From: Halorarum salinum
GTDB lineage: Archaea; Halobacteriota; Halobacteria; Halobacteriales; Haloferacaceae
Direction of reading: 5' to 3'
DNA length: 64,000 bases
NCBI RefSeq assembly: GCF_013402875.1
Contig: NZ_CP058579.1
Coordinates: 3,720,001 to 3,784,000, forward strand
The notes beneath the pieces are model-generated. The model had not been told where the DNA came from. It did not search any database and saw only the letters and a list, made by a program, of their open reading frames with translations. This document shows, piece after piece, positions 2,567 to 9,480 of the stretch. A program made the translations under genes and the position numbers. Numbering within the stretch: the first letter of the stretch is position 1; every line of letters begins with the position of its first letter.

Positions 2567-2600
2567 ATAACCCATTTGTACAAGCCCGTCATAACACTTT
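2564..2600. promoter_or_regulatory. Divergent thiDN/tenA promoter with candidate ThiR site
   Basis: Only 60 bases separate the two divergent starts (2566 minus, 2627 plus). A TATA-like stretch CATAACACTTTT at 2590-2601 lies about 29 bases before the tenA GTG and, on the other strand, about 27 bases before the thiDN ATG, so both promoters overlap. The 8-mer ATATAACC at 2565-2572 sits on the thiDN start and recurs in the thiR promoter region at 5054-5061. That makes it a candidate ThiR operator by inference only. Confidence 0.5.
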
Positions 2601-2626
2601 TCGGGTTCTCCGACGACTCCGCCCGT

Positions 2627-3292
2627 GTGACCTTCACGGACGACATCGGCGGGGAGGCCGACGAGGTCTGGACGGCCATCCTCGAGCATCCGATGGTGAG
2701 CCGACTCGGCGAGGGGACGCTCGACGAGGAGCCGTTCCGGTACTGGGTGCGCCAGGACTACGTGTACCTGAAAGAGTACGCCAGGCTGTTCGCGCTGGGC
2801 GCCGCGAACGCGCCCACGCTCGAGCACATGAGGACGTTCGCGGACCTCCTCGACTCGACGGTCGACGTCGAGATGGACCTCCACCGCTCGTACGCGGCCG
2901 AGTTCGGCATCGACGAGGCTGAGCTCGAGGCCACGACCCCCTCGCCCACGACGCGCGCGTACACCGACTTCCTGGTGCGCACCGCGGCGCTCGGGACGTT
3001 CGGCGACCTCGTGGCCGCGCTCCTGCCCTGCATGTGGGGGTTCAACGAGACCGGAAAGCGCCTCGCCGCGGCGGGCGCGCCGGACGACGAGCGGTACGCG
3101 GAGTGGATCGAGACGTACTCGGGCGAGGAGTTCACGGAGCTCACGGGGTGGTGCAAGGGGCTGATGGACGAGGTCGCCGCCGACGCGACCGGGAGCGACC
3201 GCGAGCGCTACCGCGAACTGTTCCTGACGTCGGCGCGCTACGAGTACCGGTTCTGGGACGCCGCGTGGCGGCAGGAGGGGTGGGAGCTGTGA
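2627..3292 (+). CDS. tenA: TenA family aminopyrimidine aminohydrolase, cysteine type
   Basis: TenA enzymes recover the HMP pyrimidine from degraded thiamine by hydrolysing 4-amino-5-aminomethyl-2-methylpyrimidine. The 221-residue product keeps the active-site pattern of Bacillus subtilis TenA almost position for position: D44, Y112, C135 (in LLPCMWGFNE), Y164 and E206 (in YEYRFWD); the usual Tyr139 is Phe. The GTG at 2627 is chosen because it lies about 29 bases after the TATA-like element and begins right where the family homology begins. It overlaps the next tenA by GTGA, so the two are surely cotranscribed and probably translationally coupled. Confidence 0.88.
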   Translation: MTFTDDIGGEADEVWTAILEHPMVSRLGEGTLDEEPFRYWVRQDYVYLKEYARLFALGAANAPTLEHMRTFADLLDSTVDVEMDLHRSYAAEFGIDEAELEATTPSPTTRAYTDFLVRTAALGTFGDLVAALLPCMWGFNETGKRLAAAGAPDDERYAEWIETYSGEEFTELTGWCKGLMDEVAADATGSDRERYRELFLTSARYEYRFWDAAWRQEGWEL

Positions 3293-3975
3293 CGGCCGAC
3301 ACGTTCGACCGATACGCCGCCGACCGGGCGGACGCACGCTTCACGGACTGGCTGCGGGAGCGCTCGGAACCCGACTGGACCGAGGCCGTCGAGCACGGGT
3401 TCGTGGCGGAACTCGCCGACGGCACGGTCGACGACGCGGTCTTCCGGCGCTACCTCGTGCAGGACTACGCCTTCGTCGGGGCGCTCGTCGGCGCGTTCGG
3501 CCACGCGGTCGGACAGGCGCCGACCATGGACGCGAAGGGTTCGTTGACGGAGTTCCTCGGGACGCTGACCGACGAGGAGAACGACTACTTCGAGCGGTCG
3601 TTCGACGCGCTGGGCGTGCCCGACGACGAGCGAGCGGATCCGGAGCGGGCCGACGTCACGGAGGCGTTCGAGGACCTGCTGGTCCGGGCCGCGCTCCAGG
3701 GCGACTACGAGGAGACACTCGCGGTGCTCGTGCCGGCCGAGTGGATCTACCTGTCGTGGGCCTCCGGAACAGGGGGGACGCCCGACGAGTTCTACCTGTC
3801 CGAGTGGATCGGGCTCCACCAGGACCCCGCGTTCGAGGCGTTCGTCGACTGGCTGCGGGGCGAACTCGACCGGTACGGTCCCGCGCTCGACGAGCGACGC
3901 CGGCGCCGCGTCGAGCGGCTGTTCCGGCGGACCGTCGCCCTGGAAGTTCAGTTCTTCGACGCGGCCTACGAGTGA
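3289..3975 (+). CDS. TenA family protein, glutamate type (no active-site Cys)
   Basis: This second TenA/THI-4 domain protein has 228 residues. D59 and the late Glu (E219, in ALEVQFFD) are kept, but the position of the catalytic cysteine reads PAEWIY, giving A150-E151. That is the hallmark of the TenA_E subgroup, in which a Glu replaces the Cys and which is known to take part in salvage of the thiamine pyrimidine moiety. The GTG start overlaps the stop of the upstream tenA by four bases. The pair probably performs successive or parallel steps on thiamine breakdown products. The exact substrate cannot be read from the sequence. Confidence 0.82.
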   Translation: MTADTFDRYAADRADARFTDWLRERSEPDWTEAVEHGFVAELADGTVDDAVFRRYLVQDYAFVGALVGAFGHAVGQAPTMDAKGSLTEFLGTLTDEENDYFERSFDALGVPDDERADPERADVTEAFEDLLVRAALQGDYEETLAVLVPAEWIYLSWASGTGGTPDEFYLSEWIGLHQDPAFEAFVDWLRGELDRYGPALDERRRRRVERLFRRTVALEVQFFDAAYE

Positions 3976-4069: not shown

Positions 4070-4996
4070 CTACGCCGAGTCCTCGGCCGCCGCGACGAGG
4101 TTGGCGGCGAGTTCCGCGGCCTCGGCCGCCGTCTCGCCGAACACGTACGTGATCGGTTCGATGCCGAAGGCGCCGCGGTGGTAGACCACGGGCGGGACGC
4201 CGCGGTCGCGGAACAGCCCCCGCAGCCGCTCGCCGCGGTCGTCGTAGTCGGCGTCGAACTCGAGCGGGTCGACGCCCAGCCCCCGGGCGGCCGCGAGCAG
4301 GTCCTCGCGCGTGGCGACGTTCACCGCCCCCCGAACGGCCGGGTCGGCGTCGTTCGCGGCGAGGATCGCCGTCGCCACGTGCCGGGACGCCCCGAACTCC
4401 GGGTTCGCGGGCACCTCGACGCGCCCGTCGACGGCGTAGATCCGCCCCGGGACCGCCGCGACGCCGGTCGGGTCGGCCGCGTCCGGGAGCGCCGTCCCCG
4501 CGTTCGTCCCGACGTTCGGCACGTAGCCGGCCATCCCCGGCGCGGTCGCGAGGATCCGCGTCGCCTCCCGGACGCTGGCCAGCGCGTCGCGCTCCTCCTC
4601 GACCTCCGCGTCGACGCCGCGCACGCAGAGGTCACAGCCCAGACCGCGCAGCGCCGGCATCTCCGCCTCGTGGAGTTCGCAGATCGGCCCCCGGTCCTCG
4701 AACTCGCGGATCAGTTCGAGGAGTTCGGCCAGCGCGTCGTACCCGTCCATGCTACCGGACGCCAGCCCGTCGGCGATCCGGTCGGCCGTCGCGGCGGTCC
4801 GGGGGTTCTCGCGGAACCGCTCCTCGACGGTCGCCCGACCACTCACGTACTTGCTGACGGCCGCCTGGGTCACTCCGAGGTGGTCCGCGATCTCCTGCTG
4901 GGTGAGCCCCCGCTCCCTGAGTCGGGCGGCGAGCATCGCCCGCACCGTCGGGAGGAGGCGCTCGACGACGATCTCGCTCGGGAGGACCAGCGACAT
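4070..4996 (-). CDS. thiR: ThiR, HTH-ThiN transcriptional regulator of thiamine genes
   Basis: This 308-residue protein has an N-terminal helix-turn-helix (residues 29-52, with LTQQEIADHLGVTQAAVSKY) and a C-terminal ThiN-like domain (about 135-305). A CELH (C106) and CDLC (121-124) segment lies between them, perhaps a metal site. In ThiDN the ThiN block reads VRFGASSHV; here it reads PEFGASRHV, so the Arg before FGAS is Glu. That is consistent with a domain that senses thiamine phosphate rather than making it. ThiR is the known archaeal repressor of thiamine synthesis and transport genes. A TATA-like CTTATAG about 27 bases before the ATG at 4996 points to a leaderless mRNA. Confidence 0.88.
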   Translation of the reverse strand: MSLVLPSEIVVERLLPTVRAMLAARLRERGLTQQEIADHLGVTQAAVSKYVSGRATVEERFRENPRTAATADRIADGLASGSMDGYDALAELLELIREFEDRGPICELHEAEMPALRGLGCDLCVRGVDAEVEEERDALASVREATRILATAPGMAGYVPNVGTNAGTALPDAADPTGVAAVPGRIYAVDGRVEVPANPEFGASRHVATAILAANDADPAVRGAVNVATREDLLAAARGLGVDPLEFDADYDDRGERLRGLFRDRGVPPVVYHRGAFGIEPITYVFGETAAEAAELAANLVAAAEDSA

Positions 4997-5040
4997 GGCC
5001 CCGGGTTCGCCCGAGGGCGCTATAAGTCCCCTGACCGCGG

Positions 5041-5070
5041 GTATAACGCTGTGATATAACCTGGTTTTAT
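5041..5070. promoter_or_regulatory. thiR / symporter intergenic promoter with repeated ATAAC
   Basis: The 123-base gap between thiR and the symporter holds two ATAAC repeats at 5043-5047 and 5056-5060, 13 bases apart; the second lies inside ATATAACC (5054-5061), the same 8-mer found at the thiDN start. They are followed by TTTTAT at 5065-5070, which is a good TATA box for a transcript starting at about 5097. An operator role for the repeats is inference. Confidence 0.45.
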
Positions 5071-5096
5071 CACGGCCCGGGGGCAAGCCCGGGCCG

Positions 5097-5126
5097 ATGA
5101 GCACGCGGAGGGACGGCCGATGGTGA
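5097..5126 (+). CDS. Nine-codon leader mini-ORF overlapping the symporter start
   Basis: An ATG at 5097 opens the frame MSTRRDGRW and a stop at 5124-5126 closes it, overlapping the symporter ATG (5120) by seven bases. The TATA-like TTTTAT at 5065-5070 is placed so that a leaderless transcript would begin exactly at this ATG. The ribosome would then meet the mini-ORF first and could re-initiate at the overlapping start. The same arrangement occurs at 6804-6860. It may be a coupling leader rather than a working peptide; translation is not proven. Confidence 0.4.
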   Translation: MSTRRDGRW

Positions 5127-6661
5127 GCGGCGGGATCGCGCTCGGACTGACGGCGGCCACGCTCGCGGCCCTCACGGCGGCCGGGTTGTGGCACTCGCGG
5201 GGGCGGATCGGCTCGGTCGAGGACTTCATCGTCGCCCGCGACTCGGCGGGCCGGGGCCCGACGACGGCCACGCTCGTCGCGTCCGTGATGGGCGTCTGGA
5301 TCCTGCTCGCGCCCGCCGAGGCGGGCGCGGCGTTCGGCGGCGTCGCCGCGGTGGCGGGGTACGCCGTCGGCGAGGCGATCCCGATGCTGGCGTACGCGCG
5401 GCTCGGCCCGCGCATCCGGGAGTTGATCCCCGAAGGGCACTCGCTGACCGAGTACGCGCTCGCCCGGTACGGGCCGGCGATGTACGCGTTCGTCCTGCTG
5501 GTGAGTCTCTTCTACATGTTCGTCTTCCTCGCGGCGGAGCTGACGGGGATCACGAGCGCGCTCCAGTTGATCGCCGGCGTGCCGCGGTGGCAGACCGCCG
5601 CGCTCGTCGGCGGGTTCGTACTGATCTACACCGCCTACGGCGGACTGCGGGCGAGCATCTTCACCGACACCGTCCAGGCGGTGCTGATCGTCCCGCTGCT
5701 CGTCGCGAGCGCGGTCGGCGCGCTGGTCGCGCTCGGGGGGACCGGCGCCGTGGCCGAACGGGTGGTCGCGGCCGACCCGTCGCTGCTCGATCCCACGTTC
5801 CTCACCGGCCTCCGTTTCGGGTTCTGGGTCGCGATCGCCGTCCTCGGCGCGGAGCTGGTCAACCAGACGTGGTGGCAGCGGATCTACGCCGCCCGGAACG
5901 CGGAGACGCTCCGGGCGGGGTTCCGGACCGCCGCCGTCACCAACTTCCTGATCGTCCTGCTCGCGGGGCTGTTCGGCGTCGCCGCCCGCGGCTTCGTCGA
6001 CGTCGTCGTCGACCCCGCGAGCGACTCGTACAACGCCAGCATCGCCTTCTTCGTGCTGTTGAACGAGGCGTTCCCCGAGTGGCTCGTCCTCGTCGTGGTC
6101 GTGCTCGCGCTCCTGCTCGTGGTGAGCACCGCGGACACGCTGTTCAACGCGATGGCCAGCATCGTCACCGCGGACCTCCCGCGGCTGGTCGAGGGGACGA
6201 CCGACCGGACGCTCACGTTGGCAGCCCGGGCGCTCACCGTCGTCGTCGCGCTCGCGGCCGTCTACGTGAGCCTCCGCGCCCGGAGCGTGCTGCGGCTGTT
6301 CCTGCTCGCGGACCTGCTTGGAGTCGCCGTGATGGTACCCCTGCTCTCCGGGCTCTACTCCAGGCGGCCGACCGGGCCGGGGGTGCTCTGTGCGAGCCTC
6401 GTCGGGCTCGTCGTCGGCCTCGCGTACTTCCCGAGCCCGCTCGTCCGGTCGGCGCTCGCGGGCCTCCCCGTCGTCGGGCCGGCGCTTCCGGCCCCCGACT
6501 ACCTCCCGGCGTTCGTCGGCGCGGCGGCCGCCTCGACCCTGCTCACCGTCGTCGCCGCGCGGCTCTCGAGCGCGCGGTTCGACCTCGACCGCCTGTCGCG
6601 CGAGATCCGTCGGCTGGACGAACCCGCGACGGACGGCGGCGAGGACGTGACCGACCGGTGA
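5120..6661 (+). CDS. Sodium:solute symporter (SSS) family transporter
   Basis: This 513-residue membrane protein has about 13 hydrophobic segments and the sodium/solute symporter layout, including the early FIVARDSAGRGPTTATLVAS region and the GGLRASIFTDTVQ signature typical of the PutP/PanF group. It would import a small organic solute using the sodium gradient. The substrate is not evident. Its place back to back with thiR, with the candidate operator between them, suggests thiamine or a thiamine precursor. The ATG at 5120 is the first in-frame start and overlaps the end of an upstream mini-ORF. Confidence 0.85.
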   Translation: MVSGGIALGLTAATLAALTAAGLWHSRGRIGSVEDFIVARDSAGRGPTTATLVASVMGVWILLAPAEAGAAFGGVAAVAGYAVGEAIPMLAYARLGPRIRELIPEGHSLTEYALARYGPAMYAFVLLVSLFYMFVFLAAELTGITSALQLIAGVPRWQTAALVGGFVLIYTAYGGLRASIFTDTVQAVLIVPLLVASAVGALVALGGTGAVAERVVAADPSLLDPTFLTGLRFGFWVAIAVLGAELVNQTWWQRIYAARNAETLRAGFRTAAVTNFLIVLLAGLFGVAARGFVDVVVDPASDSYNASIAFFVLLNEAFPEWLVLVVVVLALLLVVSTADTLFNAMASIVTADLPRLVEGTTDRTLTLAARALTVVVALAAVYVSLRARSVLRLFLLADLLGVAVMVPLLSGLYSRRPTGPGVLCASLVGLVVGLAYFPSPLVRSALAGLPVVGPALPAPDYLPAFVGAAAASTLLTVVAARLSSARFDLDRLSREIRRLDEPATDGGEDVTDR

Positions 6662-6748
6662 CCGCCCCGTCCCGACGCGCGTCGTCGTGGCCGCCGATCC
6701 GCCCTCGCGGCCGCCGATCCGTGGCCGCGACCGTTCGGCGGGTGTAGT

Positions 6749-6779
6749 CGGTGGTACCACCGTGTGGGAAGGCTTTTAC
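6749..6779. promoter_or_regulatory. Promoter of the Nramp-like gene with a 14-bp palindrome
   Basis: CGGTGGTACCACCG at 6749-6762 is a perfect 14-base palindrome. It ends 11 bases before a TATA-like TTTTA at 6774-6778, whose expected start site, about 27 bases on, coincides with the mini-ORF ATG at 6804. The position directly upstream of the TATA box fits an operator or activator site. The protein that would bind is unknown. Confidence 0.45.
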
Positions 6780-6803
6780 TCGCCAGCCGCGACGACGGAG
6801 TCG

Positions 6804-6860
6804 ATGAGCGCACGACGGGGGATCGAGCGGGCGGGAGGCGGACTGTGGAGGGACGGATGA
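6804..6860 (+). CDS. Eighteen-codon leader mini-ORF overlapping the transporter start
   Basis: An ATG at 6804, about 27 bases after the TATA-like element, opens an 18-codon frame starting MSARRGIERAGGG and ending LWRDG. Its stop overlaps the transporter ATG as ATGA (6857-6860). Like the mini-ORF at 5097 it is rich in Arg and Gly, has a single Trp near the end, and begins with MS[TA]RR. Two transporters in the same block sharing this layout argues for a leader with a purpose, but expression is not shown. Confidence 0.4.
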   Translation: MSARRGIERAGGGLWRDG

Positions 6861-8221
6861 GCCCCGGGAGCCGGGGACACGACGTCACCGCCGTGACGGA
6901 GGGGAGCTGGCGGGCATACCTCGCGGACATGGGGCCGTCGTGGATCGCCGGGGCGATCGCGGCCGGGCCGGCGACCATGGCGAGCCTCGTCACGGCCGGG
7001 GCGACGTTCGGCTACGCCCTCCTGTGGATCGTCCTCCTGTCGGCCGTGCTCGGCGCGTCGGCCCAGTACCTCGCGATGCGGCTGGGGCTGCTCACCGAGG
7101 CGGGGATCGTGACGATCGTCGAGCGCCACCTCGGCGAGGGCTGGGCGTGGGTGCTCGTGATCGACGCCGTGCTCGCGGCGGGGCTCGCTCAACTGGTGAT
7201 CATGAAGAGCGTCGCCGACATCAGCGCGACCGTCACGGGGGTCGACGCCCGGATCTGGGGCGTCGGGTGGGCGGTGATCCTCGCGCTCGGGCTGGCCGGG
7301 CGCGGCTACCGGTTCGTCGAACTCCTCGCGAAGCTCCTCGTGACCGCCGTCGTCGTCGCCTTCCTCGCGTCGCTGTTCGTCGTGCCGATCGACCCGGCCG
7401 GCGCCGCGGCGGGGCTCGTCCCCCGGATCCCGGCGGGCGTCGACGGCGCGATCGTCGCGGCCGGGATCCTCGGCGGCGCGGTCCACATCACCCTGATCAC
7501 GATGCACTCCTACACGATGCGCGCCAGGGGCTGGACGGCGCGGGACTACGGGCTGGCGACGTTCGACGTCGGGGCGTCGATGCTCGTCGCGTTCGGCGTC
7601 TACAGCCTCGCCATCTTCCTCGTCGCCGCGGCGGCCCTGCACTCGCCCGACGTGACCGCGGGCGAACTCACGGCGGTGTCGGCGGCGCAGGCGCTCGGTC
7701 CGCTGGTCGGCTCGAGCGCCAGGTGGCTGTTCCTCCTCGGGCTCTGGGGCGCTGCAGTCTCCACGTTAGGGGGCAACACCGTCGTCCCGCCCTACCTGAT
7801 CGCCGACAAACTCGGGTGGGGCACCGACGTCTCCGACGGCCGGTACCGGGCGCTGCTCGCCGCGGTGGCGCTCCTCTCGGGGTTGGGCGCGTTCCTCGGC
7901 GGGGTGTTCTTCCCCCTGCTGGTGCTCGTGCTGGCGTTCGGCCTCGTCGGCACGCCGTTCGCCATCGCGGTGGTCCTCTACCTCCTCAACAGCGACGCGG
8001 TGCCCGAGCGGAACTCGACGCTCGCGAACCTCGGCGGGGTCGTCCTCCTCGCCGTCACGGCGATCCTCGCCGGCAACTTCGTGGGGTCGCAGGCGCTCCC
8101 GGAGCTGGGCGACCCGATCCCGACGTTCGTCGCCGCCTTCGCCGCCGCGCTCGGCGCGGCCACCCTCGTGCTGATCGGCACCTACGTCCGCGAATCGTTC
8201 AGGGGGGCCGCGGCGCGATGA
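6857..8221 (+). CDS. Nramp-like family transporter lacking the DPGN motif
   Basis: This 454-residue integral membrane protein has about 11 hydrophobic segments. It resembles the divergent Nramp-related transporters that begin with a segment such as GPSWIAGAIAAGPATMAS. Classical Nramp proteins bind Mn or Fe through DPGN in segment 1 and an MPH motif in segment 6. Here segment 1 reads AAGPAT and the segment 6 region reads GAVHITLITMHS, so the metal ligands are not preserved and a manganese role should not be assumed. The ATG at 6857 overlaps a mini-ORF stop. The 3' end overlaps the next gene (ATGA), forming an operon. The substrate is unknown; the thiamine neighbourhood is only a hint. Confidence 0.75.
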   Translation: MSPGSRGHDVTAVTEGSWRAYLADMGPSWIAGAIAAGPATMASLVTAGATFGYALLWIVLLSAVLGASAQYLAMRLGLLTEAGIVTIVERHLGEGWAWVLVIDAVLAAGLAQLVIMKSVADISATVTGVDARIWGVGWAVILALGLAGRGYRFVELLAKLLVTAVVVAFLASLFVVPIDPAGAAAGLVPRIPAGVDGAIVAAGILGGAVHITLITMHSYTMRARGWTARDYGLATFDVGASMLVAFGVYSLAIFLVAAAALHSPDVTAGELTAVSAAQALGPLVGSSARWLFLLGLWGAAVSTLGGNTVVPPYLIADKLGWGTDVSDGRYRALLAAVALLSGLGAFLGGVFFPLLVLVLAFGLVGTPFAIAVVLYLLNSDAVPERNSTLANLGGVVLLAVTAILAGNFVGSQALPELGDPIPTFVAAFAAALGAATLVLIGTYVRESFRGAAAR

Positions 8222-8784
8222 CCGACCCGCCGTTCCCCCTCTCGGGGACGACGCTCGTCACGGGGCCGTCGAACGTCGGCAAGACCCGGCTGACGGCCCG
8301 CGCGATCGAGGCCTGGGTGGATCGTCACGGGGTCGACGGCGTCGTCGTCCTCGATTTCGGTCCCGAACTCGAACACGAGGGGCGGGTGCTGGGCGGCCGG
8401 CTCTCGCGGTTCGGGGCGCTCCCGGACGGCGTCTGGCAGGGCGTCCTCGAGGCCCACGCGCCCCGCGCCGAGGGCGGGACCGTCGAGGAGTCCGTCCGGC
8501 TCGCGGAGGACAACGGGGTCCGCGCCCGACGGCTCCTCGAGGGAGCGCCGGCCGACCCGCGCGCGGTGTTCGTCAACGACGCCACCATCCCGTTCCAGCA
8601 CGAGCGGGGCGCGGTGCGGCTGCTTACGGACTACTGCGACCGCGCGGAGGCGGCGGTGTTGAACGCCTTCGAGAGCGACGAACTCGGTACCGACGATCCC
8701 GTCTCCGTCCGGGAGCGCGCGGCGCTCGCGGCGCTGCGCGAGCGGGCCGACCGGGTCGTTCGACTCGACGACGGGGACGGCTGA
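8218..8784 (+). CDS. Small P-loop NTPase of unknown function
   Basis: This 188-residue soluble protein has a Walker A motif GPSNVGKT at residues 16-23 inside a typical LVTG-P-loop strand-turn, followed by VVVLDFGPE and, later, AVFVNDATIPF as possible Walker B region. It is cotranscribed with the Nramp-like transporter (ATGA overlap). There are no membrane segments or ABC signature, so it is not an ABC subunit. It could be a kinase acting on the imported solute or a regulatory ATPase. I do not recognise a named family. Confidence 0.7.
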   Translation: MTDPPFPLSGTTLVTGPSNVGKTRLTARAIEAWVDRHGVDGVVVLDFGPELEHEGRVLGGRLSRFGALPDGVWQGVLEAHAPRAEGGTVEESVRLAEDNGVRARRLLEGAPADPRAVFVNDATIPFQHERGAVRLLTDYCDRAEAAVLNAFESDELGTDDPVSVRERAALAALRERADRVVRLDDGDG

Positions 8785-8850: not shown

Positions 8851-9480
8851 ATGGACTTCGAGGCGGCACGCGAGCGGATGGTGGACCGACTCGTCTCCGC
8901 CGGCCGGGTCGAGCGGGAGGCGACCGCCGAGGCGATGCGGGCCGTCCCGCGCCACGAGTTCGTCCCGCCGGGGCGCCGGGACGCGGCCTACGAGGACCGC
9001 CCGCTGCCCATCGGCGAGGGCCAGACCGTGAGCGCCCCGCACATGGTCGGGGTGATGTGTGACCTCCTCGCGCCCGACGCCGACGACGAGGTGCTCGAGA
9101 TCGGTACCGGCTGTGGCTACCACGCCGCCGTGACCGCGGAACTCGTCGACCGGGGGACCCTCTACTCGGTCGAGTACCACGAGTCGCTCGCGGAGGAGGC
9201 CCGGGAGGCGCTGGCCGGACTCGGATACGGGAACGTCGAGATCAGAGCCGGCGACGGTCACGAGGGGTGGTCCGAGAACGCCCCCTACGACGGCGCGTAC
9301 CTCACCTGTGCCGCGCCGACCGTCCCGGACGCCGTCCTGGAGCAGGTCGGCGTCGGCGGGACCGTGGTCGCCCCCGTCGGCGACCGGCGGCAGGAACTGG
9401 TCACGCTCGACGTGACGCCCGACGGGGGCGACCGTGAGCGCCACGGCGGCGTCCGGTTCGTCCCGATGCGGGGCGAGTGA
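8851..9480 (+). CDS. pcm: Protein-L-isoaspartate O-methyltransferase
   Basis: This 209-residue protein repairs isoaspartyl residues of aged proteins using S-adenosylmethionine. The active-site segment QTVSAPHMV (residues 58-66) and the SAM-binding EIGTGCGYHAAV (83-94) are both present and the length is standard. The ATG at 8851 matches the family start (MDFEAARERMVDRL). The last codons form one arm of a perfect 19-base inverted repeat that continues past the stop. A longer, divergent paralogue lies at 33147. Confidence 0.93.
   Translation: MDFEAARERMVDRLVSAGRVEREATAEAMRAVPRHEFVPPGRRDAAYEDRPLPIGEGQTVSAPHMVGVMCDLLAPDADDEVLEIGTGCGYHAAVTAELVDRGTLYSVEYHESLAEEAREALAGLGYGNVEIRAGDGHEGWSENAPYDGAYLTCAAPTVPDAVLEQVGVGGTVVAPVGDRRQELVTLDVTPDGGDRERHGGVRFVPMRGE

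Follow-up and report, generated by a model that had tools for sequence, protein, structure and literature searches.

Leaderless small ORFs that are coupled to the gene downstream and whose peptides are unconserved have been described in mycobacteria (Shell et al. 2015, PMC4633059), and the idea that such ORFs serve in ribosome delivery has been stated in a review (PMC12548453). Overlapping gene pairs of the haloarchaeon Haloferax volcanii depend strictly on termination-reinitiation, need short overlaps and lose their coupling within ~20 nt (Huber et al. 2019, 2023; PMC6728339, PMC10666635), while for an E. coli gene pair the final 15 nt of the preceding gene are enough (PMC10666635). Shine-Dalgarno motifs in 5′ leaders are unused for de novo initiation in H. 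volcanii (PMC3986360). No archaeal leaderless coupled small ORF was described in the literature that we searched.

Here we compare these systems with two mini-ORFs that precede transporter genes in Halorarum salinum. The window analysed, a stretch of 64,000 nucleotides, is haloarchaeal (GC content ~0.70), and a thiamine cluster (a thiD-thiN-like gene, two tenA genes, a ThiR-type regulator, a symporter and an NRAMP gene) surrounds the mini-ORFs (Table 1). The encoded proteins are ordinary members of known families. The gene for the ThiR-type regulator is divergent from the symporter gene; it also looks leaderless, with a TATA-like ctataag at 5020-5026, 30 nt ahead of its own ATG (window 4994-5027, minus strand). 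The preliminary description had placed mini-ORFs at 5097-5126 and 6804-6860 with stops that overlap the transporter starts, and these positions and both overlaps (7 nt, reading ATGGTGA, and ATGA) were confirmed in the sequence.

Table 1. Features around the two mini-ORFs, with positions counted within the window.
Feature	Position	Strand	Basis or remark
tenA genes (two)	2597-3292 and 3289-3975		thiamine cluster
ThiR-type regulator, helix-turn-helix + ThiN domain	4070-4996	-	Pfam ThiN E=1.6e-47, HTH_3 E=1.5e-8
Palindrome GTGATATAACCTGGTTTTATCAC, candidate ThiR operator	5051-5073	.	sequence; overlaps TATA box
TATA-like box TTTTAT, symporter promoter	5065-5070	+	32 nt ahead of ATG 5097
Mini-ORF 1, putative leaderless, MSTRRDGRW, 9 codons	ATG 5097 to TGA 5126	+	sequence; layout conserved in orthologues
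Shine-Dalgarno motif GGAGG inside mini-ORF 1	5107-5111	+	8 nt ahead of symporter ATG
Sodium:solute symporter, ThiV-like	5120-6661	+	Pfam SSF E=5.3e-25
Palindrome GGTGGTACCACC upstream of NRAMP TATA box	6750-6761	.	sequence
TATA-like box CTTTTA, NRAMP promoter	6773-6778	+	31 nt ahead of ATG 6804
Mini-ORF 2, putative leaderless, MSARRGIERAGGGLWRDG, 18 codons	ATG 6804 to TGA 6860	+	sequence; ATGA overlap with NRAMP ATG 6857
Shine-Dalgarno motif GGAGGG inside mini-ORF 2	6847-6852	+	sequence
NRAMP-family transporter	6857-8221	+	Pfam Nramp E=1.3e-67
ORF without Pfam match	8218-8784
PCMT-family methyltransferase	8851-9480

Symporter orthologues were drawn from relatives, from the order and from named genomes, giving 146 distinct haloarchaeal start regions in four arrangements, to which loci were assigned by script with a few manual corrections, the related genomes not being independent of one another. 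Class (a), with 80 of the 146 loci, has tenA as the immediate upstream neighbour, with a stop between -3 and +8 nt relative to the symporter start; 36 of these 80 junctions are the 7-nt overlap ATGGTGA, and the tenA tail varies in length among the loci, yet still ends at the symporter start. In class (b) (10/146), tenA ends earlier and a bridging mini-ORF of 13-32 codons, which begins at the tenA stop (4-nt overlap in 8/10), reaches the symporter start; bridging mini-ORFs occur where tenA2 is missing, and the members include Haloferax larsenii, Haloferax elongans, Halopenitus malekzadehii and Halopenitus persicus. Class (c), to which the window locus and Halonotius roseus belong, comprises 45/146 loci from 19 genera. 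These have their own promoter and an ORF of 7-46 codons, whose start codon lies ~30 nt past the TATA box and whose stop falls -3 to +7 nt from the symporter start, overlapping it by 7 nt in 28/45 and by 4 nt in 9/45. The symporter itself is leaderless and without an upstream ORF in class (d) (~7 loci). Of the 11 of 146 loci outside classes (a) to (c), those that are not leaderless starts are L027, with a direct TGA-GTG junction, L094, where the upstream tenA appears frameshifted, and two ambiguous loci (L044, L081). Stop and start at the symporter junctions lie a few nt apart, as in termination-reinitiation pairs, and what is conserved across the 19 genera of class (c) is the promoter, the start position, the frame and the stop-start junction, and not the peptide.

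When the 45 class (c) leaders were aligned on the mini-ORF start, which had been picked partly by TATA support where several starts were possible, A+T reached 0.89-0.96 at -29 to -27; the same 45 leaders aligned on the symporter start gave no A+T peak. A leaderless start at the mini-ORF ATG, judged by promoter spacing, is therefore credible. A motif, TAYNACMAAGTWTTAT, which is the consensus of the palindrome at the symporter promoter, was found at the matching position in ~40 orthologue promoters and overlaps the TATA box in most own-promoter orthologues, and it is likely the operator of ThiR. In addition, a perfect GC-rich inverted repeat, GGCCCGGGGGCAAGCCCGGGCC, lies at 5074-5095 between the TATA box and the predicted symporter start site; no such repeat was seen among the symporter orthologue promoters compared.

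We then asked how often this layout would arise in dinucleotide shuffles. A start at the right place together with a stop at the junction had a mean probability of 0.10 per leader (0.04 if only ATG was allowed), compared to 45/45 observed, and the product of one mean probability per genus over the 19 genera was ~1e-23, a value that is overstated because the genera share ancestry. Start-to-start distances ranged from 17 to 141 nt, with one frame common to 39/45 class (c) leaders, and in all genera with between-species variation in distance (9/9) every length difference was a multiple of three. Overlaps of 4 and 1 nt dominate in general, and 7 nt is longer; the 7-nt form (ATGGTGA) is explained partly by the conserved Met-Val-Ser/Thr start of the symporter. 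A stop available at +5 to +7 through codons 2-3 was used in 72/79 symporter loci, and loci lacking such a stop made the junction otherwise, mostly with 0, 1 or 4 nt. The mean length of the Shine-Dalgarno match was 4.96 nt in class (c) and 5.4 nt in class (a), compared to 2.14 nt in the leaderless class (d) and 2.98 nt in shuffles, indicating that the motif accompanies coupling and that leaderless symporters lack it.

A census of 1.66 Mb of the window's own genome used 961 genes, which a simple script had called without recovering either tenA gene of the window. It returned 11 coupled mini-ORFs of the TATA-plus-ATG kind, where permuted triplets predicted 4.0, and 9 against 4.0 with the window excluded (P = 0.02). 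The excess is small, which suggests that the layout is rare, and a general feature of the genome was rejected. Candidates with a 4-nt overlap lie in L299 (~2600), minus-strand L231 (~16400), L240 (~15800) and L258 (~19000); the genes behind the candidates include MutL-like and response-regulator-like proteins, and a few such cases are expected by chance.

The second mini-ORF behaved differently under comparison. The preliminary description had proposed a search for the layout before orthologues, and the search recovered a conserved layout with an unconserved peptide for the symporter (45 leaders, 19 genera) and not for NRAMP. Nearly all of 30 NRAMP orthologue loci place the NRAMP start itself ~31 nt past the TATA box, which is the position of ATG 6804, and the mini-ORF 2 layout was not conserved among these loci; the window genome has 53 nt more than the orthologues between ATG 6804 and the NRAMP start. 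Once an ATG stands at the start site, roughly one ORF in four would end at the junction by chance (0.25, from the symporter leaders), so mini-ORF 2 alone is not significant and is compatible with chance. The translational coupling first proposed for both transporters is well supported for the symporter, whose layout is kept in 19 genera and whose relatives rely instead on tenA, on a bridging mini-ORF or on a transporter that is itself leaderless. The two transporters do not form a matched pair, and we rejected the idea of one conserved design because NRAMP orthologues are leaderless at the equivalent ATG. Sites like GGTNNTANCACC were found at the matching position in NRAMP orthologues. The NRAMP-family gene (6857-8221) often adjoins the thiamine symporter in haloarchaea, and its promoter carries a ThiR-like palindrome.

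Two NRAMP loci of one other genus (L210, L218) have a leaderless mini-ORF, MNDDEFxGCV, behind a TATA box and ahead of NRAMP; in the sister loci L209 and L215 a longer upstream ORF has a tail of matching sequence, and in all four loci the peptide tail DEFxGCV runs right up to the NRAMP start. The comparison of these loci suggests that an upstream ORF can be reduced to a remnant that forms such a mini-ORF. A similar GCV end at the NRAMP start was seen in L056.

For the symporter, we consider it quite probable that the mini-ORF is a leaderless entry ORF that would load ribosomes and hand them to the symporter by termination-reinitiation. Only a ribosome fresh from terminating at the symporter start codon would reach that codon efficiently. 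Such a ribosome would come from tenA in most haloarchaea; in the window genome, whose symporter has a ThiR-type promoter of its own, it would come from the 9-codon mini-ORF, with its ATG as the mRNA 5′ end. A ribosome would load at the 5′-terminal AUG by leaderless initiation and translate the nine codons; it would then stop at the UGA within AUGGUGA, where the GGAGG Shine-Dalgarno motif, eight bases ahead of the symporter AUG, would hold it, and it would reinitiate at that AUG. The mini-ORF peptide would have no function of its own. We infer all three elements of this route, that is, a transcript start at 5097, translation of the mini-ORF and reinitiation as the main route. The NRAMP gene and mini-ORF 2 probably work by the same route, as a lineage-specific arrangement.

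An alternative, which we regard as unlikely, is that the 5′-terminal AUG mainly binds ribosomes or protects the mRNA, thereby raising the local ribosome concentration, and that full translation of the mini-ORF is unneeded, as reported for E. coli ptrB. Mutation of the ptrB 5′ AUG lowered downstream expression to below 8% and a start-stop version restored 40% (Beck et al. 2016, PMC4965119). Such binding would need neither an open frame nor an end exactly on the transporter start, yet both are conserved. Very unlikely, in our assessment, is that mini-ORF 1 is a non-functional relic and that ribosomes initiate de novo on the symporter, guided by the Shine-Dalgarno motif of a short 5′ leader. The good motif 8 nt ahead of the symporter start and the two NRAMP orthologues with apparent remnants would fit a relic, but 19 genera have kept the frame, the 5′ position and the stop junction despite sequence drift, bridging mini-ORFs are present at loci that lack tenA2, and de novo use of Shine-Dalgarno motifs was not found in H. 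volcanii 5′ leaders (PMC3986360).

The preliminary description had also pointed to Arg-rich peptides with a late Trp, similar between the two mini-ORFs, and to a possible peptide-sensing leader. Both mini-ORFs read through the Shine-Dalgarno stretch GGAGGGACGG of the downstream gene in the same frame, and the likeness WRDG/RRDG is therefore its translation, while the final Trp of mini-ORF 1 comes from the overlapped ATGG; the similarity is thus an artefact, and we rejected it as a sign of a common sensor. The Arg share of the mini-ORF peptides was 0.205, slightly above the 0.176 and 0.165 of the other two frames. The Arg and Trp content can be traced to GC-rich codons, to the Shine-Dalgarno motif and to the start codon in the overlap, and Arg-rich control codons were rejected since Arg is near the frame background. 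Among the 45 class (c) mini-ORFs we found no conserved peptide or control codons of the kind expected for attenuation, and sequence and length (7-46 codons) vary freely, which does not support peptide sensing. A regulatory leader peptide, through which the nascent mini-peptide, or pausing at Arg/Trp codons, would detect a metabolite and control the transporter, is extremely unlikely: although a short ORF at the 5′ end of a vitamin-regulated transporter resembles attenuation leaders in position and Arg is frequent (0.205 of residues), neither peptides nor lengths are conserved in the 45 leaders, the Arg frequency is close to that of the other frames, the Trp derives from the overlapped start codon, and the candidate DNA operator over the TATA box with the adjacent ThiR gene could regulate without a peptide.

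As to what the symporter does, its bacterial homologues (40-43% identity; Kiritimatiellae, Chloroflexi and a cyanobacterial bin) all have a TPP riboswitch immediately upstream, and a tenA neighbour is the rule in haloarchaea. A TPP riboswitch was noted ahead of six bacterial homologues (L079, L080, L082, L083, L084, L085). The riboswitches of the bacterial homologues support a thiamine-related substrate, and together with the tenA neighbours they mark the symporter as ThiV-like. ThiV has been described as a putative pyrimidine-precursor/thiamine symporter (PMC10881298). The window protein shares the marks of the ThiV type, belonging to the SSF family and being linked to thiamine genes and control through its tenA and ThiR neighbours and the bacterial TPP riboswitch.

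If the proposed termination-reinitiation route is true, it would account for the translation of a haloarchaeal gene that has a 20-80 nt leader and a Shine-Dalgarno motif, even though H. volcanii was found not to use such motifs de novo in leaders, and some haloarchaeal mini-ORFs seen in ribosome profiling may lack a functional peptide. The natural series of tenA, bridging mini-ORF, leaderless mini-ORF and leaderless gene, which includes Haloferax species, suits tests of termination-reinitiation. It is possible, as a tentative extension, that some haloarchaeal start codons are locked to reinitiation, and that a gene leaving its operon retains or acquires a leaderless mini-ORF, which serves as an adaptor for ribosome loading and lets a Shine-Dalgarno-preceded start work in an otherwise leaderless-starting cell; in that case the mini-ORF might serve archaea generally as an initiation device independent of sequence.

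Several known systems resemble this arrangement in part. ThiV, next to tenA and a TPP riboswitch (PMC10881298), shares the sodium:solute symporter, the tenA neighbour and thiamine control; the archaeal copies differ in having a candidate ThiR operator, and their thiamine-related substrate is putative. Small ORFs upstream of haloarchaeal genes are known from H. volcanii (Babski et al. 2016, PMC4983044), but that study covered only leaders of 150-250 nt, and neither 5′-terminal ORFs on short leaders nor coupling. E. coli mRNAs with a 5′-terminal AUG and a Shine-Dalgarno leader (PMC4965119) likewise open a short ORF before a Shine-Dalgarno-led gene; effects there vary by gene, ptrB is not fully dependent on uORF translation, and no claim of a conserved stop-start junction was found in the parts consulted. 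The H. volcanii overlapping pairs (PMC6728339, PMC10666635) come from the same kind of organism and share the short overlap and the intragenic Shine-Dalgarno motif before the second start, but their upstream partners are operon genes, whereas here the partner is a disposable mini-ORF at a predicted mRNA 5′ end. The mycobacterial RTGA small ORFs (PMC4633059) have in common with our case a start at the mRNA 5′ end (here predicted), a short ORF ending on the downstream start, a linkage conserved without the peptide and a proposed role in ribosome delivery. Stop and start overlap in both mini-ORFs of the window, the strict 4-nt RTGA form being confined to mini-ORF 2 and 9/45 symporter leaders. The mycobacterial case concerns bacteria, with the 4-nt RTGA on many genes and evidence from start-site mapping, whereas the haloarchaeal case concerns one transporter family in 19 genera, with mostly 7-nt junctions, tenA and bridging mini-ORFs as alternatives and a start predicted from promoter spacing. 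Together, these comparisons present the symporter mini-ORF as a probable archaeal version of known leaderless coupling, with comparative support that is unusually strong for one gene family.
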